Part shown: positions 12,983 through 29,266 of the stretch, in pieces
Position numbering within the stretch: position 1 is the stretch's first letter
Layout: each line of letters starts with the position of its first letter
Source of the DNA: Rhodospirillales bacterium
GTDB lineage: Bacteria > Pseudomonadota > Alphaproteobacteria > ATCC43930 > CGMCC-115725
DNA: 64,000 nucleotides
Direction: 5' to 3'
Assembly: GCA_947473305.1 (NCBI GenBank)
Contig: CANJCB010000017.1
Location: 1 to 64,000, forward strand
The notes under the pieces: generated by a model
The model's input: the letters and a program-made list of their open reading frames with translations, nothing else
Databases searched by the model: none
Told to the model about the DNA's origin: nothing
Translations under genes and position numbers: made by a program

Positions 12983-13063
12983 GAAACCTCCTGCCGGTTG
13001 GACGGAACGTTAGAGCCGGGTCGGCGTTGTCTGGGCGTTACCTGTTCCTGGGAGTTCCTTTCC

Positions 13064-13213: not shown

Positions 13214-13313
13214 AGCGCTCCTTCCGTTTCGGGGCTTGGCGAGCGGACGATTTCAGGGCGAGAATGTCTCGCCGGAACGATCTTCCGCTTCGGCCAAGCA
13301 GAGAGGAAACGGG

Positions 13314-14213
13314 ATGAGCTACCAGGAGCTGATTTATTCGGTCGAAGACGCGATCTGCACGATAACGCTCAATCGGCCGCAGATGATGAACGCGCTGTCG
13401 AAGACGCTTGTGGCGGAATTGCACGCCGCCTTCGACGAGGCCGACGCCGACCGCGATGTGCGCTGCATCATCCTGACCGGCGCCGGGGCTGCCTTTTGCG
13501 CGGGCTACGATATCGCGGTGGAGAAGGGCAAACCCGCCAGGCTCGACCCCGCAGGCTATGGTTCCATCGCGGAATTCCTGGAATTCTGGCAGCGCGGCGA
13601 CGGCTCGCTCCATCAGAAATGGGAGCATATGTGGCGGCTCGGCAAGCCGATTATCGCCGCGGTCAACGGTTGGGCCATGGGCGGCGGCTTCTGGTATCAG
13701 CTCGCCGCCGATATCACGATCGCCTCCGACAAGGCGGTCTTCTCGCAGCCCGAGGTGCGGCATATCTCCAACACGACCTTCCTCTTCACCGCGCTCTGCG
13801 GCTGGAAGGCGGCCAACCGCTGGTCGCTGACCGGCGATCACTTCGACGCCCAGGAAGCGCTTCGCATCGGTCTCGTGAACGAGGTCGTGCCCCACGCTGA
13901 TCTGATGGAGCATTGCCGGGCGCTGGCCAAGCGCATTGCCCTGGTGCCGGAGCCCTCTGTCCGGCTCAACAAGGCTGTGGCGATGATGGGCATCCAGGCT
14001 TCGGGCGTCCATTCGGGCCTGTTGCTCGAAGGGTTGTTGGGCGCCATGGCCCATTCGTCCTACAACGACCATCGCGCCAAGCTTTTCGCCGCCCAGCAGA
14101 ACGAGGGGCTCAAGGCCTATCTCGACCTGCGCGACGGCCCGTTCCAGCCGGAACCGATGGGTCCGAAATCCGCCAAGGGCATGGCCGAGCGCGCCGCGGC
14201 CAAGAAAGGCTGA
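13314..14213 (+). CDS. Enoyl-CoA hydratase/isomerase family protein
   Basis: This 299-residue crotonase-fold enzyme starts at 13314 after GAGAGGAAAC. Crotonase signatures visible are LNRPQMMNALS, LTGAGAAFCAGYDI (first oxyanion-hole strand) and INGWAMGGGFWYQLAADITIAS (second). The catalytic Glu position expected in bacterial hydratases lies in the FSQPEVRH segment (Glu present). It is longer than minimal hydratases (about 260), with an Ala/Lys-rich tail. It hydrates a 2-enoyl-CoA or performs a related crotonase reaction. Possible functional link to the adjacent CoA ligase and acyl-CoA dehydrogenase genes. Confidence 0.9.
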   Translation: MSYQELIYSVEDAICTITLNRPQMMNALSKTLVAELHAAFDEADADRDVRCIILTGAGAAFCAGYDIAVEKGKPARLDPAGYGSIAEFLEFWQRGDGSLHQKWEHMWRLGKPIIAAVNGWAMGGGFWYQLAADITIASDKAVFSQPEVRHISNTTFLFTALCGWKAANRWSLTGDHFDAQEALRIGLVNEVVPHADLMEHCRALAKRIALVPEPSVRLNKAVAMMGIQASGVHSGLLLEGLLGAMAHSSYNDHRAKLFAAQQNEGLKAYLDLRDGPFQPEPMGPKSAKGMAERAAAKKG

Positions 14214-14230
14214 ATAGCCTACCACTCGTA

Positions 14231-14260
14231 TCCGCCACCCTCCGAAGGGAGGGTGGCGGA
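14231..14260. terminator. 13-bp perfect hairpin between convergent genes
   Basis: TCCGCCACCCTCC is followed by GAAG and its exact complement, making a very stable stem-tetraloop 17 bp after the hydratase stop and 18 bp before the end of the convergent decarboxylase-like gene. No T-run follows on either strand, so it could act as a bidirectional transcript end, perhaps with Rho or as an mRNA 3' stabiliser. Confidence 0.6.
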
Positions 14261-14278
14261 TCTATTCGCCGTCCCGGC

Positions 14279-15001
14279 TCAGGCCGGAAGCTGAAAAAGC
14301 TGCCCGGCATCGGGCACCGGGTCATTTACGCCGACGAGCCTCAGGGCGCCCCAGACGGCGGCCGGGGCGCTCGACACGACAGGCACTCCGAAACCCGCCT
14401 CCATTTCGACCGTCAAATCCCGGGTGCGAAGACCGCCACAGGCGATCACAAGGGCGTCGACCTTGCGGTTCTTCATCGCCTGTTCCGAAAGATCGACGAG
14501 TTGCTGTCGGGTGACGCCGCTCATATCCATCGCGGTGATGCCCATGAATTCCGGGCGTTCCGCCTGAATGTCATGCTCGTCCAGGAACTTACAGAGAAGG
14601 TTCGTAACGTCTTCGGTATAGGCCGTGGCGACAGCGACGCGCTTTGCCTTCAGCACCTTAAGTCCCCGCACCAGCGAATTCGCCATGGTGGTCACCGGCA
14701 GCCCTGTGCGCCCGGTGATCTGGGCGATCAAGCCGTCATCGAATTTGCGGCCGAATGAAAAGGTGAGGGAGGTGCCGTTGATCGCGATGGCCTGGGCGCC
14801 ACTGGCGGCAAGCTTGTCGACAACCGCGGGGATGCGCTCGATGGCGGCTTTGTAATGCGCCATTTCCATCTTTTCGAGCCCGAGCGCCTCAACGGTCAGG
14901 CGGACGCGATTTTCGAATATCTCTCGCGATTCACTTTGGATCGCCCCGTCGACGCGCGGCGCGCAGATCCCGAGCAACGGCAAGTCGCTGTCATTAGGCA
15001 T
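14279..15001 (-). CDS. Arylmalonate decarboxylase-like protein (Asp/Glu racemase superfamily)
   Basis: The protein is 240 residues, exactly the length of known arylmalonate decarboxylase. It keeps that enzyme's diagnostic features. The nucleophile Cys188 sits in VIACGGLRTRD. The first racemase cysteine is replaced by Gly in NGTSLTFSFG (GTS supplies the dioxyanion pocket). A conserved Tyr is in VATAYTEDV. Having a single catalytic Cys argues for decarboxylation over racemisation, and against maleate isomerase, which has two. The family decarboxylates disubstituted malonates without a cofactor; the natural substrate is unknown. It lies 65 bp after an ABC importer operon on the same strand, suggesting that the imported compound or a product is its substrate. 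Confidence 0.8.
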   Translation of the reverse strand: MPNDSDLPLLGICAPRVDGAIQSESREIFENRVRLTVEALGLEKMEMAHYKAAIERIPAVVDKLAASGAQAIAINGTSLTFSFGRKFDDGLIAQITGRTGLPVTTMANSLVRGLKVLKAKRVAVATAYTEDVTNLLCKFLDEHDIQAERPEFMGITAMDMSGVTRQQLVDLSEQAMKNRKVDALVIACGGLRTRDLTVEMEAGFGVPVVSSAPAAVWGALRLVGVNDPVPDAGQLFQLPA

Positions 15002-15066
15002 CGCGGCATCTCCCCTTATCTTTTGTAGGCATCGATCCTATAGGCAGCCAGCCTGACGCGCCATGC

Positions 15067-15855
15067 TCAGCCGCCGCCCGTTCCGTCATGCTGCCGGCGG
15101 GTCGCCCAACCTGTGAAACGACGTTCTATAAGCGCGAAAAGCACATAGGTGGCGATGCCCATGATCGCGATGACGGTGAGGCCCGCGAACATCAGCGGGA
15201 CCCGAAACTGGGACGAGGCCTGCAGCATCAGGTAGCCGATGCCGTCGTTCGAGGCCAAGGTCTCGGAGATGACGGTGCCGACGAAAGCCAAGGTGATTGC
15301 GACTTTCAACGAAGCGAAGAAGTAGGGAAGCGACCGGGGCAATCCCACCTTCCGCAAGATATCGAGCCGCGAGGCGCCAAGCGACCGCAGCACGTCTTCC
15401 AGTTCCGGCTCGACGGTGGCGAGGCCCGTCGCGACATTCACCGCGATCGGGAAAAAACAGAGCAGGAAGGCCGTGGTGATCGCCGGGGGTTGCCCGATCC
15501 CCATCCACAGCACGAGGATGGGAACCACCGCCGCCTTGGGCACCGAATTGACGCCGATCAGAAGGGGATAAAGGCCGCTATAAGCCAACCTCGAAGATCC
15601 GATCACTATCCCCAGAAAGCCCCCGACAACGATGCCGATTCCAAAGCCCAGGACCGTATTGGTGAAGGTGAAAAGCGCATGGGCGATAATCGGATCGCGG
15701 TACTGCAAAAACGCCTCGAAGATGGCGATCGGCGAGGGCAGGATGAAATTCCGGATCTGGAAGATCATGACGACCGCCTGCCACAACAACAGGAGCCCGC
15801 TGAAGACGAGCCAGGGCATGGCCCGTTCAAGCCGGCGCCGTCCCCGGGTTGTCAT
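15067..15855 (-). CDS. ABC transporter permease, SsuC/TauC type
   Basis: This 262-residue inner-membrane permease has about six helices, starting with WLVFSGLLLLWQAVVMIF. The ATPase-contact EAA-type loop is visible as EDVLRSLGASRLDILRKVGLP. Length and pattern match permeases of nitrate/sulfonate/taurine-type importers. Its start overlaps the ATPase stop (ATGA), so the two are translationally coupled. A homodimer would pair with the ATPase and binding protein encoded directly upstream. Confidence 0.94.
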   Translation of the reverse strand: MTTRGRRRLERAMPWLVFSGLLLLWQAVVMIFQIRNFILPSPIAIFEAFLQYRDPIIAHALFTFTNTVLGFGIGIVVGGFLGIVIGSSRLAYSGLYPLLIGVNSVPKAAVVPILVLWMGIGQPPAITTAFLLCFFPIAVNVATGLATVEPELEDVLRSLGASRLDILRKVGLPRSLPYFFASLKVAITLAFVGTVISETLASNDGIGYLMLQASSQFRVPLMFAGLTVIAIMGIATYVLFALIERRFTGWATRRQHDGTGGG

Positions 15856-16646
15856 GCGACGCGAGCCTCGCCGCGCTCGCGGGCGATATCGTCCCGGATC
15901 GCCCTGATGAGATCGACAAAAACGGGCTCGAACGTGTTTTCCAGAGTTCGCGGCCGAGGGATCTCGACCTTATAGGTCGCGATGACGCGGCCGGGGCGGG
16001 CGCTCATCACGAAGATGACATCGGCCAGAAAGGCCGCCTCTCGCAGGTCGTGAGTCACTTGGATGCAGGTGAAGCGGCGGGTGAGCCACAGATCCTGCAG
16101 CACCGCCCAGAGCTCCTCGCGGGTAAAGGCGTCGAGCGCCGCGAAAGGCTCGTCGAGCATCAGGAGCTGCGGATCGTGGATCAGCGCCCGGCACAGGCTC
16201 GCCCGCTGCTGCATGCCGCCGGAAAGCATCCAGGGTTGCTTGTCCTCGAAACCCGCAAGCCCCACCGAGGCCAGGAGCCGCTTCGCGCGATCCACATATT
16301 CGGCCTTGTGCTGCCGGAGCCGCGAGCGATGCGGCTCGACGATCTCCAGCGGCAGAATGGTATTGGAGAGCGTGTCCCGCCAGGGCAGGAGCGTCGGATT
16401 CTGGAAGGCCATCCCCGCGATCTTCAACGGCCCATCCACGGCTTTTCCGGCAACACTCACCACTCCGGCGGTCGCCGGCAAAAGGCCGGTCACGAGTTTC
16501 ATCAGCGAGGACTTTCCGCAACCGGAAGGTCCTACGACCGCAGCAAATTGTCCCTGCTCCACGGAAAGACTGGCGTTCCGAAGCGCAAAAAGCCCCTCAG
16601 GCCCGCCATAGCGCAGGGACACGTCTTCAAGTGAAACAAAGCCCAT
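15852..16646 (-). CDS. ABC transporter ATP-binding protein, SsuB/TauB type
   Basis: This 264-residue ATPase shows Walker A GPSGCGKSS, Q-loop MAFQNPTLLPW, signature LSGGMQQRASLCRAL, Walker B LLMLDEPFAALD and switch VTHDLREAAFL. FQNPTLLPW and FAALD are typical of nitrate/sulfonate/taurine importers. It overlaps the permease gene by 4 bp and starts 13 bp after the binding-protein stop, so the complete importer is encoded by three adjacent genes. Confidence 0.95.
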   Translation of the reverse strand: MGFVSLEDVSLRYGGPEGLFALRNASLSVEQGQFAAVVGPSGCGKSSLMKLVTGLLPATAGVVSVAGKAVDGPLKIAGMAFQNPTLLPWRDTLSNTILPLEIVEPHRSRLRQHKAEYVDRAKRLLASVGLAGFEDKQPWMLSGGMQQRASLCRALIHDPQLLMLDEPFAALDAFTREELWAVLQDLWLTRRFTCIQVTHDLREAAFLADVIFVMSARPGRVIATYKVEIPRPRTLENTFEPVFVDLIRAIRDDIARERGEARVA

Positions 16647-16659
16647 CGGGGCGCGCGGC

Positions 16660-17709
16660 TCAGGCGAACTTGCGATCTGAAAGCGGTGGCAGGAAGCGAT
16701 CGTCGAAAAGTGTCGCCATCGTCGGCGCCGGCGAAAGCTGGAAACCCTGGGCGAGCAGGTTCAAGCCTCGCGACATCCGCTCCGGATCGACATAGCCCAT
16801 CCCGTTCTTCTTCACCGATTCAGTGAGGATCAGACGGTCATAGACCCAATCGAGCCGCTGGCGTTCGGTCTTAGCATCCAACAGCCTGTCGCGTTTCGTC
16901 ACGGCCGCGATGGCCGCGTCACGATCCTTGGCGCCGGCCACCATCGCGCGCGACGAAGCGATCGCGACGCGGCGCACCAGGTCCGGGTTCTTCTGGATGA
17001 TGGATTGGCTGGCGACCAGGGAATTTCCCCAGAAGTCGAAACCGTAATCGGAAAAATAGAAAAGATTGATATCTTCGAGTTTGAGGCCAGCCTCGATGAG
17101 ATTGAAGATCGCCGTGTAGTCGAAAGCGATCACGCCATCGACATCGCCTTTGATCAGCAGGGTGTCGCGCAGTTTCACGTCGACGGTCACCCGGTTGATC
17201 GAGGCTGGATCGAGTTTGTTGAGCGCCATAAGCGCCGGGAAAATCTTGGACCCCGCATCGGAAGTTCCGGTCCCGATCTTCGCACCGACGAGGTCCTGCA
17301 AGCTCTTGATCGGCTTGCGTTTCAAACTGAGGATCACCGCCGGGAAGCGATCGAAGACGGTCATCAGCACTTTGGGAGCCGCGCCGGGATTGCGCGCGCT
17401 GAATTCCGCAACCGTGGCGAGATCCGCATAGCCGAAATCGTGGGTGCCGCTCGCCACTCTCGTGACTGTCTCACCGGATCCCGACGAGCCGTCCAGCGCC
17501 ATCTCCAGGCGTTGATCCCGGAAGATGCCGTTCTCGGCGGCAAGAAACATGGGGGAATTCGCACCATAGATGCGGAACTCCAGGCTGAAACGCACCTGGT
17601 CCGTAGCCTGTGCACGAAGGATGGACGGGGCGGCGGCAATCCCCGCCGCCGCCAGACCAGCGCCCATGACCGCGCGACGAGACGGCTTGCTTCCCAGATT
17701 CCAGCTCAT
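16660..17709 (-). CDS. ABC transporter substrate-binding protein, NMT1/SsuA type
   Basis: This 349-residue periplasmic receptor has a twin-arginine-like signal (PSRRAVMGAGLAAAG, then AAAPSILRAQA), suggesting export by Tat. The mature part has NMT1/SsuA features: VRFSLEFRIYGANSPMFLAAENGIF, GSGETVTRVASGTHDFGYADL and a later FLP/DRFLPPL tail. Relatives bind sulfonates, nitrate, pyrimidine precursors or aromatic acids. It is the first transporter gene of this importer and lies 33 bp after the acyl-CoA dehydrogenase gene. Ligand unknown; the surrounding enzymes suggest a carboxylic acid. Confidence 0.9.
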   Translation of the reverse strand: MSWNLGSKPSRRAVMGAGLAAAGIAAAPSILRAQATDQVRFSLEFRIYGANSPMFLAAENGIFRDQRLEMALDGSSGSGETVTRVASGTHDFGYADLATVAEFSARNPGAAPKVLMTVFDRFPAVILSLKRKPIKSLQDLVGAKIGTGTSDAGSKIFPALMALNKLDPASINRVTVDVKLRDTLLIKGDVDGVIAFDYTAIFNLIEAGLKLEDINLFYFSDYGFDFWGNSLVASQSIIQKNPDLVRRVAIASSRAMVAGAKDRDAAIAAVTKRDRLLDAKTERQRLDWVYDRLILTESVKKNGMGYVDPERMSRGLNLLAQGFQLSPAPTMATLFDDRFLPPLSDRKFA

Positions 17710-17742
17710 TTGAAGTCCTCCCCTCAGGCCAGCAATGCTACG

Positions 17743-18918
17743 TCAGAGACCGAGCACCATCTTGGCCAATATGTTCTTCTGGATTTCGTTAGACCCGCCG
17801 TAGATCGAGAGCTTCCGCCAATTGAAATAGGTCGGAGCGATGACGCCCGCCCATTCCGGATCCAGCGCTTCCTCGTTCGAAAGATGTTCGTCGGGGCCCT
17901 CGCGCCGGGACTGCAGGCCGAAAGGTCCCGCGAGCGACAGATAGAGTTCCGTGATCGATTGCATGATCTCGGTCCCCCGCAGCTTGAGGATCGAAGACCC
18001 CGGCCCCTTGGCGCCTCTCTGCTCGGCAGAGAGGATCCGGAGCGTCGTCATTTCATGGGCCTTGAGTTCGATCTCGACCGCCGCGAGCTTTTGCAGGAAA
18101 CCGGGGTCGGCATCCTCTTCTTCGGCTATCTTCTTGAGATACTTGAGGCGTTCCTTTGAAATACCGATGCGGGCCATGCCGGTCCGCTCGTTGCCGAGCA
18201 GAAATTTGGCGCAATCCCAGCCCCGGTTCTCGGTTCCGATGAGATTCTCCACCGGCACCCGCACGTCGTCGAAAAAGACTTCGTTCACTTCATGGGCGCC
18301 GTCGATCGTGACGATCGACTTCACGGTGATGCCGGGACTTTTCATGTCGATCAGCAGGAAGGAGATGCCTTCCTGCTTCTTGGCTTGAGGGTCGGTTCGC
18401 ACGAGGCAGAAGATCCAATCGGCGTAATGGGCATATGTCGTCCACATCTTCTGCCCATTGACCACATAGTGATTGCCGTCCCGCCGCGCCGCCGTGCGCA
18501 GGCCCGCGAGATCGGACCCCGCACCCGGCTCCGAGAAGCCCTGGCACCACCAATCGTCGATATTGGCGCAGCGCGGCAGAAAGCGTTGCTTCTGCTCCGG
18601 GGTGCCGAAATGCGCGATGACCGGCCCGACCATGTTCACATTGAAGGAGAGAGGCGTCATCGCGGGTGCGGCCTCGATCTCCTCCCGCAGGATATAGCGC
18701 TGGATGGCGGTCCAGCCCGCGCCACCCCATTCCACCGGCCAATGGGGAACCGCCCAGCCCTTGGCGTTGAGGATGCGTTGCCAGGTCACCATGTCCTCTT
18801 TGCTGGTGAACTTGCCGTCCTGCATCTTGGCCCGAATGCTCTCGGGCAGCGATTTCTTGATGAAGTCGCGGACCTCGGTCCGAAACGCCAATTCTTCCTT
18901 GGTGAAACTGAGATCCAT
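17743..18918 (-). CDS. Acyl-CoA dehydrogenase family protein
   Basis: This 391-residue FAD enzyme would introduce an alpha,beta double bond into an acyl-CoA. It has the three-domain ACAD layout: helical N-terminus, the middle beta domain with GFSEPGAGSDLAGLRTAA and VVNGQKMWTTYAHYADW, and a C-terminal helical domain ending YGGSNEIQKNILAK, the conserved FAD-contact region. Length and the FADE-like N-terminus (FTKEELAFRTEVRDFI) fit subfamilies acting on bulky or branched acyl-CoAs. It starts five bases after the preceding binding-protein stop, so it is in the same operon. The electron acceptor (ETF) is not encoded here. Confidence 0.93.
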   Translation of the reverse strand: MDLSFTKEELAFRTEVRDFIKKSLPESIRAKMQDGKFTSKEDMVTWQRILNAKGWAVPHWPVEWGGAGWTAIQRYILREEIEAAPAMTPLSFNVNMVGPVIAHFGTPEQKQRFLPRCANIDDWWCQGFSEPGAGSDLAGLRTAARRDGNHYVVNGQKMWTTYAHYADWIFCLVRTDPQAKKQEGISFLLIDMKSPGITVKSIVTIDGAHEVNEVFFDDVRVPVENLIGTENRGWDCAKFLLGNERTGMARIGISKERLKYLKKIAEEEDADPGFLQKLAAVEIELKAHEMTTLRILSAEQRGAKGPGSSILKLRGTEIMQSITELYLSLAGPFGLQSRREGPDEHLSNEEALDPEWAGVIAPTYFNWRKLSIYGGSNEIQKNILAKMVLGL

Positions 18919-18923
18919 CGGTC

Positions 18924-20516
18924 CTATTTCTCCAGCCAGGCATCGCGCCAGCTCGCCATGGAATGTTCGTCTTCAAGTCCATGGAGGCCTTTGTTCATCG
19001 CGTCGTAAAGCACCCGCTCATGCAGGGTCAGCATAGGCAATTCGGCCGCCAGGATCAGCTGCACCTGCTTGTAATAGATCCCACGATCTTCACGATCTGT
19101 CGCGTGCTCCGCCTTATCGAAAAGCGCGTCGACCTGGGGGTTCGAATAGGACGATCCATTGCCGGTCTGCTTGCCGATAGCGGAAGTCACGAAGGCCCGA
19201 GCCATTCCCAAGGCGGGGTCCCCAAAGCTCTGATAGCCGATCATGCTGGCGTCGCAATCGCAGGTCTTGTCGCCAAACATCCGCTTCGTGGCTGTCGCGC
19301 GCTCATTGCCGTCCACGGTCACATCGACGCCGATCTGACGCCACATGCTCTTGATCGCCGGAATGACGAGCGGCGGCTCCGGGTCGTCGGAAGCGAAGAG
19401 GATATCCATCTTGAAACGGATCCCATCGGCGCCGCGCTTTACGCCGGCTTCGTCGAGCAGCGCATTCGCCCGGGCAGGGTCGTAGGGATACATCCGGCGG
19501 TAATCGATATTGGGATCGGCGGCCCATTTGATCCCATTTGTGAAGGGCATCGTCCCGACGCCTCCCACACCCAGGAAAGCCGTCTTGAAGAGGAGGTCGC
19601 GATCCGTCGCCATCATGAGCGCCTGTCTCACCCGCTTGTCGTCCAAGGGTTTGCGCGTGACGTTCAGGAAAAGGATGTCGATGCCGGGCGGGATATTCGC
19701 AGGGCGAAGCTGGAGCTTGGGATTGGCGCGCACCGCGTCGAAATCGTTGGGCGCGAAGAAATAGCCCATGATGAAATCGATCTCGCCGGTCAGCAGCGCC
19801 TGGGTCCGGGCGGAAGGCTGCGGGATCACCTTGGCGACGATCTCGTCGAGATAGGGTTTGCCGGGCTCCCAATAGTCCGGGTTCTTGACGAGACGGATGT
19901 AATCCCCGCGCTTCCACTCCTTCAGCATAAAGGGACCCTGACCGACCGGCTTCTGGGTGGTCGTCGGGTTCTGGAGCGGGTTCGTGCCCTCATAAAGATG
20001 CTTCGGCAGGATCGCGCCGCCTTGCGGGCAGGCGAGCGAAAGGAGGAGGGGACCGTAGGGTTCCTTGAGCTGGATGACGGCTTTATCAGGCGAGGGGGTC
20101 TCGATGGTGTCGATCACGCGCCCCGCGCCGCTGAAGACCGCGCTGTATTTCGCGCTCACTTCCAGCAACGTGTATTTGACGTCTTCCGAGGTGAAGGGCT
20201 TCCCGTCCTGCCAATTCGCTTTCTGAAGCTGGAACGTATAGGTCTTGCCGTCGGGGGAGATGGTCCAGGACCGGGCCAGCATGGGCTTGACATCGCCGGC
20301 GCCATTGATGCGGGTCAACCCTTCATAGATCGCGCAGGAAACGAGACCGTCCGCGTTGTTGCTGGATACGTTCCGGTTGAGGGTCACAGGATCGCCACCC
20401 ATGGCGAAAACGACGGTGCCGCCCTTTTTCGGCGTCTGCGCTTCGGCAAAGCCGCAGCCGAGCGTCAACAGACCAGCGAGCCCGGCGGCGAGCGCCGCCT
20501 GTTTCTTCCCCTCCAT
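18924..20516 (-). CDS. ABC transporter substrate-binding protein, oligopeptide/nickel type (SBP_bac_5)
   Basis: This 530-residue periplasmic receptor begins with a Sec signal (Lys-rich start, Ala/Leu core, cleavage near FAEA|QTP). Mature hallmarks are KKGGTVVFAMGGDP, DGKTYTFQLQ and WQDGKPFTSEDVKYTL. It is a clear paralogue of the protein at 145-1725, sharing long identical blocks such as AGAGR, TPSPD and NPLQNP over the full length. Like that one, it directly follows a TauD-type gene (3-bp gap). No dedicated Dpp-type permease is present. It may use a permease encoded elsewhere. Ligand unknown. Confidence 0.93.
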   Translation of the reverse strand: MEGKKQAALAAGLAGLLTLGCGFAEAQTPKKGGTVVFAMGGDPVTLNRNVSSNNADGLVSCAIYEGLTRINGAGDVKPMLARSWTISPDGKTYTFQLQKANWQDGKPFTSEDVKYTLLEVSAKYSAVFSGAGRVIDTIETPSPDKAVIQLKEPYGPLLLSLACPQGGAILPKHLYEGTNPLQNPTTTQKPVGQGPFMLKEWKRGDYIRLVKNPDYWEPGKPYLDEIVAKVIPQPSARTQALLTGEIDFIMGYFFAPNDFDAVRANPKLQLRPANIPPGIDILFLNVTRKPLDDKRVRQALMMATDRDLLFKTAFLGVGGVGTMPFTNGIKWAADPNIDYRRMYPYDPARANALLDEAGVKRGADGIRFKMDILFASDDPEPPLVIPAIKSMWRQIGVDVTVDGNERATATKRMFGDKTCDCDASMIGYQSFGDPALGMARAFVTSAIGKQTGNGSSYSNPQVDALFDKAEHATDREDRGIYYKQVQLILAAELPMLTLHERVLYDAMNKGLHGLEDEHSMASWRDAWLEK

Positions 20517-20519
20517 CGC

Positions 20520-21548
20520 TCAGGCGCCCGCGACCACCGCGTCGGCACGGGCATCCTTACCGGGGAAGAGGCCCGCATAATATTTCGCCTTGGCCTTATA
20601 GGCCTCGCAAACCGGCCGGCCCTGCGGCACGTCCAGCCACATGCGGAGCAGGGATCGCTTCTGCGTCGGGGAATCCTTGAACTCGGTGCGGGCATGCATG
20701 GTGATGAAGTTGTTCACCACCATCATCTCGCCGGGCTCGATCATGAAGTTGACGTGGATGTCTTCGCGAGCCGCCACCTCATTCAGGTATTTCATCGCCT
20801 CGTCGAGGTCGGCGGGAAACGCCTCGCCCATTTTTTCGGCCGCCTTGCGGATCTGGCTGTCCACATAAAGCATGCTGACCTTGCCCTCGACGCAGGAAAA
20901 GACCGGGATCTTGTAGGGGGTCACCGGCTTCGACGAGAGCGAGGCCTCGTTGATCGCGTATTCATGACCGCGATAAAGCGCCGGCAGCAGGTCGGGCCGG
21001 GTCTTCAGGATCTCGTTATGGACGGCCAGAACGCTCGCAAGCTGGCTGTAACCGCCTTCCGCCGCCTGCTCTTCGCACATCAGGCCGACGATCTCGTTGG
21101 TGTCGGTATGAAGGGTCAGCTCCTGGTTGCCGCGATAGGCGCGGTTGGTGGGGTTGCCGGGACCGACCGGGGTGAAAGTCACCCGGCCGAGCTTGTCGCC
21201 CAAGGCGCTCTGGGTGACGCCGATCCCCCAATGGGTCCCGAAGCCCCAATAGATCCGCTCGAAATCCTCTCGGGCGAAACGCTCCTTGGTGATCCCCTGG
21301 ATCACGACCGCGCCGCGGCCATTGAGCAGGATATTAAAGATATCGGCCAACATCGGGTTCAGGACCGGATGATCGAAATCCTGCCGCGTGACTTCCTGGG
21401 CGGCGAGAGGACGGGTGCGTTCCAGCAGCTCCTCAATCGCCTTCAGGTGCTTTTCTTCCATCTTATAGGCGAGGCCGGCCTTGCCGCCGATCGAGCGATT
21501 GGTCCAGGCCCCCGGATGATCGATGATCTGGCGATAGATTTCCGTCAT
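20520..21548 (-). CDS. TauD/TfdA-family Fe(II)/2-oxoglutarate dioxygenase
   Basis: This 342-residue cytoplasmic oxygenase starts at 21548 after GAGGAGCGG; an in-frame upstream extension to 21632 lacks similarity. The iron triad is H147-x-D149 in LTLHTDTNEIVG and H285 in FITMHARTEF. R302 in RSLLRMWLD is the probable 2-oxoglutarate anchor. It shares the LHNEIL/VHNEIL, RPDLL and C-terminal RMW layout with the paralogue at 1760-2875, but overall identity is clearly lower. It is the first gene of the leftward operon, followed at 3 bp by its binding protein. Hydroxylation of an imported acid is a reasonable inference; the substrate is unknown. Confidence 0.9.
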   Translation of the reverse strand: MTEIYRQIIDHPGAWTNRSIGGKAGLAYKMEEKHLKAIEELLERTRPLAAQEVTRQDFDHPVLNPMLADIFNILLNGRGAVVIQGITKERFAREDFERIYWGFGTHWGIGVTQSALGDKLGRVTFTPVGPGNPTNRAYRGNQELTLHTDTNEIVGLMCEEQAAEGGYSQLASVLAVHNEILKTRPDLLPALYRGHEYAINEASLSSKPVTPYKIPVFSCVEGKVSMLYVDSQIRKAAEKMGEAFPADLDEAMKYLNEVAAREDIHVNFMIEPGEMMVVNNFITMHARTEFKDSPTQKRSLLRMWLDVPQGRPVCEAYKAKAKYYAGLFPGKDARADAVVAGA

Positions 21549-21700
21549 GGCCCGCTCCTCGCAAAAATCGCCGCGCGACGATACGCGGCTTTCGAACGCC
21601 GTAGTTTCCTTGGGGGCGCGATAGCCTGTCAATCGCTATTGGCCGCGAGCGGAAAGTGCGGCTAGGATCGCCCCGAACCAAGGGCGAGGACGTGCTGATC
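21549..21700. promoter_or_regulatory. Divergent promoter region of the catabolic locus
   Basis: These 152 bp separate two opposed gene sets and must contain both promoters. The only internal symmetry noticed is a weak one: ATAGC and GCTAT arms nine bases apart (about 21624-21642). No convincing -35/-10 pair was found. No regulator gene lies next to it, which is unusual for a catabolic locus. Confidence 0.4.
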
Positions 21701-22693
21701 ATGGCGAAATTGAAATTGAGTGTTGCCGTCTGCGATTACGACCGGACGATGGCGGTTCTCGACGGGCGGGCGGCCATCGACGGCTGCGACGTCGTGGCGA
21801 CGGCGCTTGAACCGGAAGAGGCCTTCCACCGCGCCTTCAAGTTCCAGGAATTCGATGTCACCGAGATTTCGCTGAGCTCGACCATCCTGTCGACGGTGCG
21901 CGGCGACTGCCCCTATATCGGCGTCCCGGCCTTCGTATCCCGGGTGTTCAGGCATTCCGGCATCTACATCCGCACCGACCGGGGCATCAAGACGCCCATG
22001 GATCTCAAGGGCAAGAAGATCGGTCTGCCCGAATACCAGATCACCGCCAATGTCTGGATCCGGGGCATCCTCCAGGACGAATACGGATTGAAGCCCTCAG
22101 ACGTCTTGTGGCGGCGCGGCGGCATCGAGGAAGCGGGCCGGGGCGAGCGCTCGCCAATCAAGCTGCCGGCTGACGTCGACCTCCAGCAGATCCCCGACGA
22201 CAAGACCCTGTCGGAGATGCTCAGCACCGGCGAACTCGACGGCATGATCAGCGCCCGGGCGCCGAGTTGCTATAATCGTGGCGATGCGAATGTCGGCCGG
22301 CTCTTCCCCGACTTCCGCAAGGCCGAGCAGGACTATTACCGCAAGACCGGGATCTTCCCTCCGATGCATATGATCGGCATCCGCAAGACCCTGGTCGAGC
22401 AGCATCCCTGGCTTCCGGTCAATGTCTACAAGGCCTTCCTGAAGGCGAAGGAAGTGGCGATGTACCAGGTCGCCTCGATCGGCCATCTCTATGCGACGCT
22501 GCCCTGGTCGATCGCCGACTACGAAGAGACGGTGAAGCTCATGGGGCCGGACTATTGGAGCTATGGGCTTGAGAAGAACCACAAGGATATCGACACCCTG
22601 ATGCGCTATTCCTTCGAGCAGGGCCTGTCGAGCCGCAAGCTGAACCCGGAGGACATCTTCCATCCCGCGGCCCTGGAACTCTCGAAGATCTGA
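21701..22693 (+). CDS. 4,5-dihydroxyphthalate decarboxylase-like protein (binding-protein fold)
   Basis: This 330-residue protein starts at 21701 (MAKLKLSVAVCDYDRT) with GGGCGAGGA upstream. It lacks any signal peptide, so despite a periplasmic-binding-protein fold it should be cytoplasmic. Features typical of Pht5-like decarboxylases and their many unassigned relatives are CDYDRTMAVLDGR, HRAFKFQEFDVTEISLSS, FRHSGIYIRTDRGI and KGKKIGLPEYQITANVWIRG. The family includes decarboxylases of hydroxylated phthalates and other aromatic acids, but most members are uncharacterised. It is the first gene of the rightward operon, two bases before the CoxL-like gene. Confidence 0.8.
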   Translation: MAKLKLSVAVCDYDRTMAVLDGRAAIDGCDVVATALEPEEAFHRAFKFQEFDVTEISLSSTILSTVRGDCPYIGVPAFVSRVFRHSGIYIRTDRGIKTPMDLKGKKIGLPEYQITANVWIRGILQDEYGLKPSDVLWRRGGIEEAGRGERSPIKLPADVDLQQIPDDKTLSEMLSTGELDGMISARAPSCYNRGDANVGRLFPDFRKAEQDYYRKTGIFPPMHMIGIRKTLVEQHPWLPVNVYKAFLKAKEVAMYQVASIGHLYATLPWSIADYEETVKLMGPDYWSYGLEKNHKDIDTLMRYSFEQGLSSRKLNPEDIFHPAALELSKI

Positions 22694-22695
22694 GC

Positions 22696-25044
22696 ATGAT
22701 GGAGGGTCCGCGCCGGGTTGTCGGCACAGGAGCGCGGCGGATCGAGGATCCGCTGCTCCTGAAGGGGCAGGCGCGCTTCCTCGACGATCTCGACATGCCG
22801 GGCATGCTGCATGTGGCCTTCGTGCGGAGCCCTCATGCCCACGCCAGGGTTCTGGGCTTCGACGGAACGGCGGCACGCGCGATGCCCGGTGTCGAGGCGG
22901 TACTGGGCCTCGACGACCTGATGCCGGTGCTGACCCGACCCCGCATGCCCTTGGGCTTCCCCACCAATACGCTGCCCAAGGACATCACGCCCTTCGTGCT
23001 TTCCAGCAAGGAAGTCTCCTTCGTCGGAGACCCGGTCGCCCTGGTGCTGGCGACCTCGCGTTACATCGCCGAAGACGCGGCCTCCCTTGTCGAGGTCGAC
23101 TATGAGCCTTTGCCGGTCGTCACCAATATCCTGGCCGCCATCGAACCCAACTCGCCCAGGGTCCGGACCGAGTTTCCCGGCAATATCCTGACCCAATTCA
23201 AGGCGGCCTATGGCGATGTGGAGGGCGCTTTCGCCAAGGCTCCCCACGTCTTTCGCGAGCAGATCTGGCAGCATCGTGGCGCCGCCCACCCCTTGGAAGG
23301 GCGGGGAATCATCGCGCGCTACGATGAGATGACGCGGGCGCTGACACTCTGGGGCTCCACCCAGATGCCGCACGATCTCGCCTTCACCGCAGCCGACATG
23401 CTGGGCGTCGAGGAAAATCGTATCCGGGTGATTTCACCGGAAATCGGCGGCGGGTTCGGCGCGAAGTTCGTGATCTATCCGGAGGAGATCGCCGTCGCGG
23501 CCGCCGGCATGCTCACCAAGCGGCCGGTCAAATGGATCGAGGACCGGCGCGAGCATTTCACCAGCGCCATCCAAAACCGCGATCAATTCTGGGATATCGA
23601 AATCGCCCTCGATGCGGGCGGCATCATAGCGGGCGTGCGCGGGCGGATGGTCCATGACCAGGGCGCCTATACGCCCCAAGGGATCAACCTGCCTTTCAAT
23701 GCGGCAACCTCCGTGACCGGACCCTATATCGTACCCGCCTATCATCTCGATGTGACGGTTGCGCAGACCAACAAGCCGGCGGTGATCCCCGTGCGCGGCG
23801 CCGGCTATCCCGAGGCCTGCTTTGCCATGGAACGGCTGATGGACCGCGCGGCGGATGAGTTGGCGATCGACCGGACGGAGCTTCGACGGCGCAATTTCGT
23901 CCCGGCCTCGAAGATGCCCTATGAGAAACCGCTTAAGAACCGCGCGGGGGCGGGCATCGTGCTCGACAGCGGCGATTACGAAAAGGGCCAGGACACCGCC
24001 CTGGAAGCGGCAGGGTACAAGGACTTTCGCGCGCGCCAAGCCGCGGCGCTCAAGGAAGGCCGCTATATCGGCATGGGCGTGTCCCATGGGGTCAAGGGCA
24101 CGGGGCGCGGTCCTTTCGAATCCGCGACCGTCCGCATCGCAACCTCCGGCCATGTCACCGTCTATACCGGCGCGGTCGCCATGGGGCAGGGGATCAAGAC
24201 GATCCTTGCTCAGGTCTGTGCCGATCAGCTGGGTGTCGCCATCGAAGACATCGAGGTCGTCAATGGCGATACAGGTTTCATTTCCCTGGGCCTTGGAGGA
24301 TTTGCAAGCCGCCAGACCGTGACAGCGGGCTCGTCCGTCCATCTCGCCTCCCTGGGCGTTCGGGAGAAGGCGATCAAGGTCGCCGCGGGCCGGCTCGAGG
24401 TCGCCGAGGAGGATCTCGTTCTCGCGAACGGCAAGGTCCATGTGGCCGGCGTGCCCGAAATGTCGATCACTCTCGCCGAGGTGGCGCGGCTTCTGCGGGG
24501 GGTGCCGGGCTATGCGCTTCCTCCGGGAGTCAACGCCGGCCTCGAAGCGAGCCATCATTTCCGCGCCGAGCATTTGGCCTATGCCCATTCCTGCCACGTC
24601 TGCGAGGTCGAGGTCGATATCGAGACCGGCGGCGTCACGCTCCGGCGCTTCATCGCGCTTCAGGACAGCGGAACGCAGATCAACCCCATGCTGGTGGCCG
24701 GCCAGGTCCATGGCGGCGTCGTTCATGGGATCGGCAATTCACTCTTCGAATGGATGGGCTATGACAGCGAGGGCCAGCCGTTGACCACGACTTTCGCGGA
24801 CTACCTGATGGCGACAGCGCCGGAAATCCCGAATATCGAGGTTCTCAAAATCGAAACGCCGTCACCTCTCAATCCGCTTGGCGTAAAAGGCGTGGGGGAG
24901 GGTGGGACGGTGCCCGTCGCGGCCGCCGTCATTTCCGCGATCGAGGATGCCTTAAGGCCCTTCGCCGTCCATATCGCCCAGGCGCCGGTCTCGCCGATGC
25001 GCCTTCTCGAATTGATCGATGAAGCTCGGACAAGGGCAGCCTGA
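22696..25044 (+). CDS. Xanthine dehydrogenase/CoxL-family molybdopterin-binding large subunit
   Basis: This 782-residue catalytic subunit belongs to the molybdenum hydroxylase family. The N-terminal a/b-hammerhead domain (VGTGARRIEDPLLLKGQARF) is followed by the molybdenum-cofactor domain with GGGFGAKF, PVRGAGYPEACFAMER, GAVAMGQGIKTILAQV and the catalytic-glutamate motif GVGEGGTVP near the C-terminus. The active-site loop is VRGAGYPEA. CO-oxidising form I has a Cys-containing AYxCSFR loop, so this is not a true CO dehydrogenase and belongs with form II-like hydroxylases of unknown substrate. The usual [2Fe-2S] and FAD subunit genes are missing from the locus. Molybdenum cofactor genes moaC and moeA lie 10 kb away. 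Confidence 0.9.
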   Translation: MMEGPRRVVGTGARRIEDPLLLKGQARFLDDLDMPGMLHVAFVRSPHAHARVLGFDGTAARAMPGVEAVLGLDDLMPVLTRPRMPLGFPTNTLPKDITPFVLSSKEVSFVGDPVALVLATSRYIAEDAASLVEVDYEPLPVVTNILAAIEPNSPRVRTEFPGNILTQFKAAYGDVEGAFAKAPHVFREQIWQHRGAAHPLEGRGIIARYDEMTRALTLWGSTQMPHDLAFTAADMLGVEENRIRVISPEIGGGFGAKFVIYPEEIAVAAAGMLTKRPVKWIEDRREHFTSAIQNRDQFWDIEIALDAGGIIAGVRGRMVHDQGAYTPQGINLPFNAATSVTGPYIVPAYHLDVTVAQTNKPAVIPVRGAGYPEACFAMERLMDRAADELAIDRTELRRRNFVPASKMPYEKPLKNRAGAGIVLDSGDYEKGQDTALEAAGYKDFRARQAAALKEGRYIGMGVSHGVKGTGRGPFESATVRIATSGHVTVYTGAVAMGQGIKTILAQVCADQLGVAIEDIEVVNGDTGFISLGLGGFASRQTVTAGSSVHLASLGVREKAIKVAAGRLEVAEEDLVLANGKVHVAGVPEMSITLAEVARLLRGVPGYALPPGVNAGLEASHHFRAEHLAYAHSCHVCEVEVDIETGGVTLRRFIALQDSGTQINPMLVAGQVHGGVVHGIGNSLFEWMGYDSEGQPLTTTFADYLMATAPEIPNIEVLKIETPSPLNPLGVKGVGEGGTVPVAAAVISAIEDALRPFAVHIAQAPVSPMRLLELIDEARTRAA

Positions 25045-25048
25045 AGCG

Positions 25049-25831
25049 ATGCCGAAATTCGCCGCCAACCTTTCGTTTCTCTTCGCCGAACTCCCGTTTC
25101 TCGATCGTTTCGCCGCCGCGGCAAGCCTGGGCTTCAAGGCGGTGGAATTCATTTCACCCTACGATTACCCGCCCGAAGAGATCGCGACGCATCTCCAGCG
25201 CCACAGCCTGGAACTGGCGCTCTTCAATGCGCCTTACAGCAAATCCCCGGGCGGCGAACGAGGCATGGCGGCGCTGCCGGACCGACGCGACGAGTTTGTT
25301 TTTACCTTCGACCGTGCCCTCCTTTATGCGGAAGTTACAGGCTGCCAACGCATTCACGTCCTTTCCGGGGTCTGGCCGGAGGGGCGGGATCGGCGCGAGG
25401 GTGAGGCTTGTTATATCGACAATCTGAGGTGGTGTTCCGACAAGGCGGCCAGGCTGGGCGTCACTCTGCAAGTCGAGCCCCTGAATGGCCGCGACGCCCC
25501 TGGCTATTTCATCGGGACCACAGAACAGGGAATGGATATCGTTCGACGCGTCGGTCGCGAAAACGTCCGACTCCAATTGGACCTCTACCACCGGCAAATG
25601 ACCGAGGGCGACCTTTCCGAAGCGGTCACGAGCCTCGTTGGCTGGTATAGCCATATCCAGATCGCCAATGTTCCGGGCCGGCATGAGCCCGACGATGGGG
25701 AGGTGAATTACAGCCATCTCTTCCAGCTGATTGATGAGGTTGGCTATCAAGGTTGGATTGGCTGCGAGTATCGCCCCCGAACCACTGTAATCGCCGGAAT
25801 CGGATGGGCGAAACCTTGGGGCATCGGCTAG
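25049..25831 (+). CDS. Hydroxypyruvate isomerase-like TIM-barrel protein
   Basis: This 260-residue protein starts at 25049, four bases after the CoxL-like stop. The N-terminus (MPKFAANLSFLF, FLDRFAAAASLGFKAVEF) and the metal-binding glutamate contexts LQVEPLNGRD and GCEYRPR are those of the Hyi family of AP-endonuclease-2-like sugar isomerases. Characterised members interconvert hydroxypyruvate and tartronate semialdehyde, or act on threonate/otherwise oxidised sugar acids. In this locus it may process a two- or three-carbon fragment. The next gene follows after 117 bp, including a hairpin. Confidence 0.87.
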   Translation: MPKFAANLSFLFAELPFLDRFAAAASLGFKAVEFISPYDYPPEEIATHLQRHSLELALFNAPYSKSPGGERGMAALPDRRDEFVFTFDRALLYAEVTGCQRIHVLSGVWPEGRDRREGEACYIDNLRWCSDKAARLGVTLQVEPLNGRDAPGYFIGTTEQGMDIVRRVGRENVRLQLDLYHRQMTEGDLSEAVTSLVGWYSHIQIANVPGRHEPDDGEVNYSHLFQLIDEVGYQGWIGCEYRPRTTVIAGIGWAKPWGIG

Positions 25832-25903
25832 GCGCGCTCCATAGCGCATGACAAGCCGCTATCCCCTCCATAATAATGGAAAGCACTTTAAAGGCGCAAA
25901 AGA

Positions 25904-25928
25904 GCCCGCCCTTTTCAATCAGGCGGGC
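25904..25928. terminator. Hairpin between the isomerase-like and GMC oxidoreductase genes
   Basis: GCCCGCC and GGCGGGC are exact complements around an 11-base loop, 73 bp after the isomerase-like stop and just upstream of the GGGGGAG ribosome site of the next gene. There is no T-run. It could limit read-through or occlude the ribosome site. A smaller symmetric motif (TCCAT-AATA-ATGGA, 25867-25880) lies before it. Confidence 0.4.
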
Positions 25929-25948
25929 CTATTGGGGGAGATTGGCTG

Positions 25949-27619
25949 ATGCCTGCCGAAAATACCTACGACTACATCGTCATCGGCGCGGGCTCCGCCG
26001 GCTGCATATTAGCCTATCGCCTGGCTTCAGAAGATGGAGCCTCCGTGCTTCTGCTAGAAGCGGGTCCTTCAGACGAAAGCTGGAAGGTAAGGATGCCCCG
26101 GGCCGTGCGCGAGGCCTATAAGCAAGGCAGCCCTCACGCCACCTGGTATCAGAGCGAACCCCAGGAACATCTCGACGGACGTGTCGTGCCCCATCCACGC
26201 GGGACCGGCATGGGCGGTTCCGCGTCGGTCAACGGCATGATCTTCCTGCGCGGCCATGCGCTCGACTACGAAACCTGGGCCCAGGAAGGCTGCCGGGGCT
26301 GGTCCTATGCCGACGTGCTGCCCTATTACAAGCGGCTCGAAAGCTTCGACGGAGGCGACGCCACCTATCGCGGGCGTAGTGGCGCGGTTCGGGTTTCGCT
26401 GCAAGACGAACTCAGCGAATTGGATGCCGCTTTTCTCCTGGCCGGCAAGCAGGCAGGATTTCCCGAGACAGCGGATGTGAACGGCCGGCAGCAGGAAGGT
26501 TTCTGCCACTTTCCTCTCAACATCGACGATGGGGTCCGGGCAAGCTCCTCCTATGCCTATCTCGTGAAACGGCAGAGACCGCCGAGCCTCAGCATCGCCA
26601 CCGGGGCCAAGGCCTGCCGTCTCCTGTTCGAAGGCAAGCGCGCGGTGGGTTTGGAATATCTCCAGAACGGCGCGCCACGGACGGTCCGGGCAGCGCGGGA
26701 AATTATCCTTTCCGGCGGCGCCTTCGGTTCGCCTCATCTGCTGATGCTGTCGGGCGTGGGACCGGCCGACGAGTTATCGGCCCTCGGCATCAAGCCGGTG
26801 GTGAACCTCCCGGGCGTGGGCCGCAACCTTCAGGATCACACCCATGTCCACGTGCAGTTCGAGTGTCTGAAACCCGTTTCGCTCAACGGACATCTCGTTC
26901 CACATCGGAAGGCGATGATCGGCCTCAACTGGCTGTTGTTCAGGAAAGGCATGGGCAGGGGCGCCAATGGAGTGGTGGGCGCTTTTCTTTGCAGCCCCAC
27001 GGAAACGCTGCATCCCAATATTGAAATCCACTATTACCCGATCCTGGTGACTCCCGAAGGAAAGCTGCCGCCGGGCAGGCATGGCTTCCGGCTTCTTGCC
27101 GGATCGATGCGCCCGGAGAGCCGCGGTTTCGTGAAGCTTCGCTCCGCCGATCCCTCCGTTCATCCCATCATCGATCCCTGTTATCTTTCTACCGAGAGGG
27201 ATCGGATTGAACATCGCGAAGCCTACGAGATCCTGCGGGAAGTCGCGCGCCAACCCGCCTACGATCCCTATCGCGGCAGAATGATCGAGCCCGAGACGGA
27301 ACCCCGCACAAAGGCGGAGATCGACGCCTACGTACGTCAGGCGCTGCTCACGACCTATCACCCCAGCGGGAGTTGCAAGATGGGCATCAGCGAGGATGCG
27401 GTCGTCGATCCGGAACTGAAGGTCCGGGGCGTCGAGGGCCTGCGTGTGGTGGATGCTTCCGTCATGCCACGGGTGGTCAGCAGTAACACCAACGGGCCGA
27501 CCATGATGATCGCCGAAAAGGCGTCGGACATGATCCTGGGCAAAACTGCCCTGCCACCGGAAGTCGCAGCCTATGCGACGATGCTGCCCCGTAAACCGCC
27601 CGTGGGCGCTCTCGCCTGA
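25949..27619 (+). CDS. GMC-family FAD-dependent oxidoreductase
   Basis: This 556-residue flavoprotein of the glucose-methanol-choline family oxidises an alcohol to an aldehyde. The dinucleotide-binding start is YDYIVIGAGSAGCILAYRLA, followed by LLLEAGP. GMC signature 1 appears around GTGMGGSASVNGMIFLRG and signature 2 as GAFGSPHLLMLSGVGP. The catalytic His lies in TYHPSGSCKMG, followed by VVDASVMP and NTNGPTMMIAEKASD. Length matches choline/alcohol dehydrogenases. Start at 25949 follows GGGGGAG. It is probably part of the rightward catabolic operon or transcribed separately after the hairpin. Confidence 0.94.
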   Translation: MPAENTYDYIVIGAGSAGCILAYRLASEDGASVLLLEAGPSDESWKVRMPRAVREAYKQGSPHATWYQSEPQEHLDGRVVPHPRGTGMGGSASVNGMIFLRGHALDYETWAQEGCRGWSYADVLPYYKRLESFDGGDATYRGRSGAVRVSLQDELSELDAAFLLAGKQAGFPETADVNGRQQEGFCHFPLNIDDGVRASSSYAYLVKRQRPPSLSIATGAKACRLLFEGKRAVGLEYLQNGAPRTVRAAREIILSGGAFGSPHLLMLSGVGPADELSALGIKPVVNLPGVGRNLQDHTHVHVQFECLKPVSLNGHLVPHRKAMIGLNWLLFRKGMGRGANGVVGAFLCSPTETLHPNIEIHYYPILVTPEGKLPPGRHGFRLLAGSMRPESRGFVKLRSADPSVHPIIDPCYLSTERDRIEHREAYEILREVARQPAYDPYRGRMIEPETEPRTKAEIDAYVRQALLTTYHPSGSCKMGISEDAVVDPELKVRGVEGLRVVDASVMPRVVSSNTNGPTMMIAEKASDMILGKTALPPEVAAYATMLPRKPPVGALA

Positions 27620-27656
27620 GAACGTCAGCCTGAGAACGTCAGCCTGAGAACGTCAG
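27615..27656. repeat. Three perfect tandem copies of a 14-bp unit over the GMC stop codon
   Basis: The unit CCTGAGAACGTCAG occurs at 27615-27628, 27629-27642 and 27643-27656 without mismatch. The first copy supplies the TGA stop of the oxidoreductase gene and the later copies extend into the 3' flank. It is a simple tandem duplication, probably from replication slippage. Confidence 0.9.
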
Positions 27657-27748
27657 CCCGAGATCATCACCCAGCCGGCGACGCCCAGCAGAAGAAGCGT
27701 AAAGCTCAGGGCCAAGCCGATCCTCAGGAGAAGGCGAGGGGCCGGCAT
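27653..27748 (-). CDS. Possible 31-residue single-helix membrane protein
   Basis: The frame MPAPRLLLRI, then a Leu/Val-rich segment ending GWVMISG, encodes a positively charged start followed by one hydrophobic helix. There is no clear ribosome site and the gene ends inside the 14-bp tandem repeats. It could be the tail of a slightly longer protein or chance. Function unknown. Confidence 0.25.
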   Translation of the reverse strand: MPAPRLLLRIGLALSFTLLLLGVAGWVMISG

Positions 27749-27812
27749 GTGGTTGTCGTTGACGCCTACGGGCCGTTTCTCGACGGAAACGACCTTGCAT
27801 GCACCGTAGGCT

Positions 27813-27836
27813 GGCGGCTCCGTGGAAGGAGCCGCC
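27813..27836 (-). terminator. Hairpin downstream of citrate synthase
   Basis: GGCGGCTCC and GGAGCCGCC pair perfectly around a six-base loop, starting 12 bp after the gltA stop on the minus strand. There is no T-run. It is most likely the gltA transcript end or a stabilising 3' structure. Confidence 0.55.
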
Positions 27837-27848
27837 GACCTGTTGGGA

Positions 27849-29162: not shown

Positions 29163-29229
29163 CGATCTAGTTCCTCTATCGACCCGTGGATAACTGGCGC
29201 TCTTGTGCGGCGCAAAATCGTATACTCAA

Positions 29230-29258: not shown

Positions 29259-29266
29259 AGCCAATC

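Follow-up and report, generated by a model that had tools for sequence, protein, structure and literature searches.

The stretch from position 14279 to position 27619 of a 64,000-nucleotide piece of Rhodospirillales DNA (the window, meaning that whole piece; it lies on contig C17 of genome G000, which has 4,695,435 bases in 105 contigs) carries eleven genes arranged divergently around a gap at 21549-21700. We tentatively regard this locus as a mosaic of three modules around one of 77 look-alike receptors of the genome, and not as one conserved pathway. The evidence is computed and consists of gene content, the number of receptor paralogues, an excess of TauD-family oxygenase genes beside them, one block duplication, orthologous genes for a transport channel and a recurrent pairing of Pht5-like and CoxL genes. 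It is also possible, and is put forward here with considerable reserve, that the genome practises a form of plug-in uptake, in which about 77 receptors of the ATP-binding cassette (ABC) type would compete for one Dpp channel, itself split, and some of them would be inherited as a unit with an oxygenase of their own (an iron- and 2-oxoglutarate-dependent (Fe/2OG) enzyme, an orphan CoxL or others), so that recognition and first oxidation would be gained together; the locus in the window would be such a cassette extended by decarboxylases. The chief interest of the locus lies in its membership of this genome-wide receptor-oxygenase system, and its interpretation as a single pathway is weak.

The features of the locus, including a relative of arylmalonate decarboxylase (AMDase) and an oxidoreductase using flavin adenine dinucleotide (FAD), are as follows.

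14279-15001, minus strand: AMDase-like protein, a predicted decarboxylase (Pfam Amdase, 195 bits; NCBIfam arylmal_decarb, 207 bits, below the cutoff of 225)
15067-15855, minus strand: ABC permease, SsuC/TauC-like (Pfam BPD_transp_1; NCBIfam relatives below cutoff)
15852-16646, minus strand: ABC ATPase, TauB/SsuB-like (Pfam ABC_tran; the NCBIfam relatives shown are below cutoff)
16660-17709, minus strand: NMT1/SsuA-type receptor (Pfam NMT1, 103 bits; twin-arginine-like N-terminus by eye)
17743-18918, minus strand: acyl-CoA dehydrogenase, PimC-like (NCBIfam pimC_large, 559 bits, below the cutoff of 624)
18924-20516, minus strand: orphan SBP_bac_5 receptor (Pfam SBP_bac_5, 278 bits; one of 77 paralogues in the genome at 42% identity or more)
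20520-21548, minus strand: TauD-family Fe/2OG oxygenase (Pfam TauD, 106 bits; start taken as ATG 21548)
21549-21700, no strand: intergenic gap separating the two divergent gene sets
21701-22693, plus strand: Pht5-like protein (PDB 9jp7, E 6.5e-102; weak Pfam NMT1 match, 21.3 bits; start taken as ATG 21701)
22696-25044, plus strand: CoxL-type molybdenum hydroxylase large subunit (Pfam MoCoBD_1/2 and Ald_Xan_dh_C)
25049-25831, plus strand: OtnI-like 2-oxo-tetronate isomerase, TIM barrel (NCBIfam OxoTetrIsom, 343.7 bits, above the cutoff of 325)
25949-27619, plus strand: GMC-family FAD oxidoreductase (Pfam GMC N and C; NCBIfam PRK02106, 650 bits, above the cutoff of 605)

The families named for these genes in an earlier, sequence-only reading were all recovered in place, and the count of ten genes given there is corrected to eleven.

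Conservation of the gene set

The sequence-only reading had proposed one undescribed pathway of carboxylic-acid degradation, and had named neighbours that vary between relatives as evidence against it. A pattern scan of 84,980 species genomes for Pht5-like proteins, which detects close relatives only, gave 37 loci, and at these the neighbours do vary. AMDase, SBP_bac_5, NMT1-type receptor and OtnI genes were each found at 0 of the 37 loci, TauD at two (30-32% identity), acyl-CoA dehydrogenase at three (22-29%) and GMC oxidoreductase at four (37-40%), with an ABC permease at one and an ABC ATPase at two. The eleven genes are therefore not a conserved unit, and one conserved pathway is not supported. 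Pht5 and CoxL are a recurrent pair: CoxL lies within 5 kb of Pht5 at 21 of the 37 loci (19 of the 29 that have at least 5 kb on both sides), and a close CoxL (at least 45% identity) is present at 13 of the 37 (11 of the 29 with full flanks). Of the co-occurrence of AMDase-like, Pht5-like and CoxL genes that had been suggested as a check, the Pht5-CoxL part was thus borne out and the association of AMDase with Pht5 was not. The catabolic character of the locus remains plausible from its importer, two decarboxylase-type proteins, hydroxylating enzymes and acyl-CoA dehydrogenase; it is the single undescribed pathway that finds no support at the 37 loci.

A pathway comprising all eleven genes would have the two receptors import one carboxylic acid, the TauD-type enzyme and CoxL hydroxylate it, the Pht5-like and AMDase-like proteins decarboxylate it, and the acyl-CoA dehydrogenase, OtnI-like and GMC enzymes finish its breakdown. 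The compact divergent layout with operon-like spacing, the retention of catalytic residues in the AMDase-like, TauD and CoxL proteins, the recurrence of the Pht5-CoxL pairing and the presence nearby of an acyl-CoA synthetase gene (10094-11980, outside the set) would all suit such a pathway. We nevertheless consider it unlikely, given the four families missing from every Pht5 locus, the two occurrences of TauD and the rarity of the AMDase gene. At an E-value of at most 1e-30 the window's own genome is the only one of the 43 in the order to have this gene, and at 1e-35 or below the gene has a single relative (36% identity) among the 384 other genomes of the class, making 2 of 385; this second gene adjoins genes resembling MR/MLE enzymes and TctABC.

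As judged by length and sequence start, many Pht5-CoxL loci add CoxM/CoxS-looking genes, and Bug-type receptors are frequent at them. The arrangement nearest to that of the window is seen at loci L064 and L067, where Pht5 and CoxL are adjacent with no CoxM/CoxS-type genes beside them; a TauD relative lies on the other strand a few genes off, together with genes resembling those for a luciferase-type monooxygenase, a DsbA-like isomerase and an amidohydrolase. A second Pht5-CoxL pair is present in the window genome itself (C69, 2982-6280; L088/L122), its CoxL being 57% identical to that of the window. In the family genome G013 (4.8 Mb) the Pht5-like protein has 20 matches at E-values of at most 1e-40, which amounts to a separate paralogue expansion.

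Expansion of the SBP_bac_5 receptor

The puzzle of two receptors in one locus drew attention to a genome-wide expansion of one of them. When the SBP_bac_5 receptor was used to search its own genome, 96 matches were obtained, of which 78 rows were at 42% identity or more and the remainder at 33% or less; two pieces on C36 were counted as one, giving 77 receptor genes. Among the 384 other class genomes, for each of which the three best candidates were scored, only G240 held a relative at an E-value of at most 1e-120 (43% identity), and the best relative among 72,556 plasmids reached 36.8%. The median pairwise identity among 74 receptors was 51%, compared with 43% to the G240 receptor. A tree was built from 93 rows comprising 75 receptors, 15 ordinary SBP_bac_5 proteins of the window genome, the G240 receptor and one protein each from the family genomes G013 and G016; the receptors outside it were one cut by the boundary of a fetched block and the two-piece one. 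A single clade of this tree (support 0.957) takes in 74 of the receptors, and the remaining one, C10:64597, pairs with that of G240 (support 1.0). The paralogues resemble one another more than they resemble homologues from the 384 class genomes, the plasmids and the tree rows, a sample that includes few family genomes. A hydrophobic N-terminal segment was found in 74 of the 75 receptors by a simple ad hoc rule. As a first look, the window genome gave 98 SBP_bac_5 candidates; the other family genomes gave 47 or fewer and one order genome gave 51, scoring being capped at 37 per family genome.

Most of these receptors have no membrane component beside them. No permease lies within 3 kb of 67 of the 77, or of 53 of the 62 having full 3-kb flanks, and permeases are no more frequent within this distance of a receptor than chance predicts (12 of 95, with 11.2 expected).

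Oxygenases beside the receptors

TauD genes are found near the receptors more often than expected. Of 15 genes genome-wide related to the window's TauD at an E-value of at most 1e-50, 7 have a receptor within 3 kb, where 1.9 would be expected (p = 0.0011; p = 0.0009 at 1.5 kb and 0.0015 at 5 kb), and the excess persists when the window's own pair is left out (6 of 14, p = 0.004). Among the 119 genes directly beside receptors 14 are of TauD type. A first Pfam control, in which TauD made up 16 of 119 neighbours and 7 of 118 control genes, was set aside as biased, many of the control loci having been fetched around TauD. Outside the regions fetched in that way, TauD genes make up 10 of 101 immediate neighbours of receptors, compared with a single one among the 441 other genes (Fisher 3e-7), or 9 of 100 neighbours with the window's own pair dropped (Fisher 1.6e-6). 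The receptor-TauD pairs C1:122221 and C93:306 are 84% identical in their receptors and 83% in their TauD proteins, so that one pair was recently duplicated as a block. A second receptor-TauD cassette lies at the left end of the window, at 148-2875 on the minus strand, with an SBP_bac_5 receptor about 60% identical to that at 18924-20516 and a TauD-family gene (30%) upstream.

For CoxL the enrichment near receptors is weak. The window genome has 32 CoxL genes (E-value of at most 1e-50), the highest count among 39 family genomes, many of them incomplete (the next has 23), and 14 matches to CoxM. No CoxM lies within 3 kb of 19 of the 32, and 7 of these 19 CoxL genes have a receptor at 3 kb or less (2.7 expected, p = 0.011), compared with 1 of the 13 that are linked to CoxM. 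A CoxL without CoxM is not always fully orphan, since at L274 (C88, 4518-7339) there is a CoxS-looking gene directly upstream of CoxL; that contig holds no CoxM match.

A candidate shared Dpp channel

In G240 the receptor sits in an operon-looking set with MmgE-like, DppB, DppC, DppD and DppF genes (named by eye). The window genome has a DppB at C48:15025-16005, beside two receptors, that is 73% identical to the DppB of G240, the next best being 43%; a DppC-DppD-DppF block at C21:63080-65821 is 63-65% identical to the corresponding G240 genes, the next best in the compared stretches being 44%, 46% and 51%, respectively. Of the 95 permeases, 72 were covered by the comparison, the 50 strongest among them. 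The simplest reading is that one orthologous Dpp channel, now split over two places, would serve the large receptor family. C59:9315, considered as the missing DppC, was rejected, since it matches the window's SsuC-type permease; the DppC was located on C21. At C22:42460 (L186), near the receptor C22:40006, there is a relative (53%) of the MmgE-like gene from the G240 operon, as if an operon of the G240 type had been scattered over the genome.

Proposed working of the locus and its alternatives

As a mosaic, the locus would have as its first module a receptor-oxygenase cassette made up of the orphan SBP_bac_5 receptor and the Fe/2OG oxygenase directly upstream. The receptors, mostly permease-free locally, may pass their ligands to the one Dpp-type ABC channel (DppB on C48; DppC, DppD and DppF on C21), and an oxygenase paired with a receptor would attack the imported molecule. 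The NMT1-type importer, the AMDase-like decarboxylase and the acyl-CoA dehydrogenase would constitute a second module. The third would consist of the Pht5-like protein and CoxL, a pair recurring in proteobacteria, followed by the OtnI-like and GMC enzymes; here CoxL presumably borrows FAD and iron-sulphur subunits encoded elsewhere in the genome. We infer both the action of the modules on one carboxylate at this locus and every reaction step. Because of the Pht5-CoxL pairing, our guess at the substrate is an aromatic or heteroaromatic carboxylate.

Several observations weigh against this proposal. A same-strand TauD lies directly beside only 14 of the 77 receptors (15 counting one on the opposite strand), and one TauD is common to two receptors among the 14 cases, so the receptor-oxygenase cassette is one arrangement among many. 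Distances between receptors and between TauD proteins are correlated over 13 pairs (r = 0.50, p = 0.0006), and r falls to 0.20 (p = 0.09) without C1:122221 and to 0.24 (p = 0.06) without C93:306, whereas it stays at 0.50 or above when any of the other eleven pairs is dropped; as the correlation rests on one block duplication, general co-divergence of receptors and TauD is weakened as evidence. For CoxM-less CoxL the association with receptors gives p = 0.12 when the distance is set to 1.5 kb and p = 0.048 when it is set to 5 kb, and for all CoxL genes it is 8 of 32 against 4.5 expected (p = 0.07). Several family genomes carry 30 or more SBP_bac_5 genes, and the class search covered three recognised genomes (G010, G011 and G035) of the 38 others in the family, which sets a limit on assigning the expansion to this lineage. 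DppB on C48 is separated from DppCDF on C21, sharing of the channel by the receptors is something that we infer from orthology only, and the receptors could instead work with one of the genome's further Dpp-type systems or act as sensors. Finally, decarboxylase activity of the Pht5-like protein is not assured, because many members of the Pht5 family are annotated as substrate-binding proteins and have other neighbours.

On another reading, the receptors would be ordinary dipeptide/nickel-type diversity of a nutrient-scavenging organism, common to relatives outside the search, and the proximity of oxygenases would reflect the crowding of catabolic genes. Relatives are indeed rich in SBP_bac_5 genes (up to the 47 and 51 first-look candidates given above), TauD and CoxL are numerous in the window genome, and the co-divergence of receptor and TauD is weak beyond the one block duplication. 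This explanation is doubtful, however, in that TauD is enriched beside receptors relative to other genes of the same sampled regions and permeases are not, and in that 74 receptors group in a clade separate from such outside rows as were available. An improbable further alternative is that the orphan receptors are sensors, each signalling its ligand to a membrane sensor that switches on neighbouring oxygenase genes: the scarcity of adjacent permeases would fit, and a sensing role for orphan receptors of tripartite tricarboxylate transporters (TTT) is discussed in PMC5994714, but no sensor kinase or regulator family was matched in the scanned proteins of the window locus or among the 25 families listed (of 135) for the 119 immediate receptor neighbours, and the nearest outside relative, that of G240, sits in what looks like a full importer operon.

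Comparison with known systems

The mosaic and its receptors can be compared with several described systems. PMC5994714 describes expansions of TTT (Bug/TctC) receptors, with 434 in Rhodoplanes sp. Z2-YC6860 and 79-181 in Bordetella, the latter having at most four sets of membrane components. The likeness lies in one receptor family present at dozens or hundreds per genome, mostly as orphans, with few membrane components. Unlike these, the expanded receptors of the window genome belong to SBP_bac_5, a family of the peptide/nickel type of ABC system; a single orthologous Dpp channel goes with them, and Fe/2OG oxygenases lie beside them above chance. In Borrelia burgdorferi, according to PMC7822543, five peptide-class OppA receptors serve one Opp transporter and three have been modelled with different binding pockets; the window genome differs in having 77 receptors and in its presumed catabolic substrates, as opposed to peptides. 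SAR202 Chloroflexota resemble the window genome in carrying many paralogues of oxidative enzymes per genome, which PMC6946804 reads as a widened substrate range; the expansion-linked families that it lists include COGs of dipeptide transport. They are of another phylum, and the families of the window genome are TauD, CoxL and SBP_bac_5, with some receptor-oxygenase pairs physically linked. No description of an SBP_bac_5 expansion of such a kind was found by title or abstract in the open-licence literature.

If the proposal is correct, deletion of one gene, dppB, would probe the role in uptake of dozens of receptors together, and the pairing of receptor and oxygenase in the genome would give clues to the substrates of TauD and CoxL paralogues that are still uncharacterised. 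Receptor expansion, known for TTT systems, would then extend to ABC systems of the peptide type and be tied to oxidative enzymes, and this would suit an organism living on chemically diverse dissolved organic matter.

The individual enzymes

The AMDase-like protein was aligned with 3dtv and compared with the catalytic and pocket residues listed for arylmalonate decarboxylase in PMC4996985. G74, T75, S76, Y126, C188 and G189 of the Bordetella enzyme are all identical, the G-T-S, Y and C-G motifs being located. Of the pocket residues P14, P15, L40, V43, Y48, V156 and M159, read by eye from the alignment, P14, L40, Y48 and M159 are retained, P15 is replaced by Arg, and V43 and V156 are replaced by Met. 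The kept catalytic residues, the three changes and a score of 207 bits that does not reach the curated NCBIfam cutoff of 225 speak for a predicted decarboxylase with another pocket. In its neighbourhood the gene resembles the arylmalonate decarboxylase loci of PMC4996985 in standing beside an importer. The loci described in that paper have MR/MLE genes with TTT, tripartite ATP-independent periplasmic (TRAP) or peptide/nickel ABC transporters; the window differs in its NMT1-type ABC importer and acyl-CoA dehydrogenase, and in the Arg at pocket position 15.

TauD/TfdA Fe/2OG oxygenases are defined by an HxD...H facial triad and a distal Arg. The TauD protein of the locus, whose PDB relatives are 7n7v and FrbJ (5eqn), has H175-x-D177, H313 and R330 (P0005 numbering, assigned by pattern), and every one of the 26 TauD-type proteins from the sampled regions fits the HxD...H pattern.

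Over residues 16-342 the Pht5-like protein matches 9jp7, a 4,5-dihydroxyphthalate decarboxylase of solved structure (E 6.5e-102), and no export signal was seen by eye. Pht5 belongs to the phthalate 4,5-dihydroxylation pathway, and one Pht5-family protein is likewise present in the window. Unlike that pathway, the window has CoxL, and neither a Rieske oxygenase nor a Gfo/Idh/MocA dehydrogenase was matched among the proteins scanned around the locus, so that a reading as the phthalate 4,5-dioxygenase pathway was rejected; two plasmid relatives have both enzymes.

Form I aerobic carbon monoxide dehydrogenase is defined by a Cys-containing active-site loop (C-S-F-R) in CoxL. The CoxL of the window has GVGEGG and carries VRGAGYPE in place of the Cys-Ser-Phe-Arg loop, and with the Cys loop missing a reading as carbon monoxide dehydrogenase was rejected. 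Neither CoxM nor CoxS was matched among the proteins scanned around CoxL, and a complete CoxLMS set was thus not encountered. In the OtnI-like protein the OxoTetrIsom match begins at residue 11, and the start was taken at the second Met.

Layout, gap and flanks

The seven genes of the minus strand run outwards from the gap in the order TauD, SBP_bac_5 receptor, acyl-CoA dehydrogenase, NMT1-type receptor, ABC ATPase, ABC permease and AMDase-like, with spacing, from the table of open reading frames (ORFs), ranging from a short overlap to 65 bp, which is operon-like; the four of the plus strand follow as Pht5-like, CoxL, OtnI-like and GMC. The limits of the gap follow from the likely starts, ATG 21548 for TauD and ATG 21701 for the Pht5-like gene. 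One divergent promoter had been proposed here. The divergent arrangement holds, and the promoter itself is putative, since a sigma-70-type scan gave no site in 21549-21700; over the whole stretch 13000-29300 the scan gave 1 site against 3.4 expected by chance. The earlier statement that there is no local regulator agrees with our scan, in which no regulator family was matched among the proteins examined over 8.8-32 kb, some ORFs such as 11850-12257 lying outside it.

Two further ORFs were rejected as genes. The minus-strand ORF 13203-14225 matched no family, and opposite it ORF 13236-14213 encodes an enoyl-CoA hydratase; the minus-strand frame is for this reason taken as a shadow; the plus-strand ORF 18963-21665 is likewise without a family match. 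The left flank of the locus carries the enoyl-CoA hydratase, a glutathione transferase and the acyl-CoA synthetase at 10094-11980, and the right flank carries a citrate synthase.

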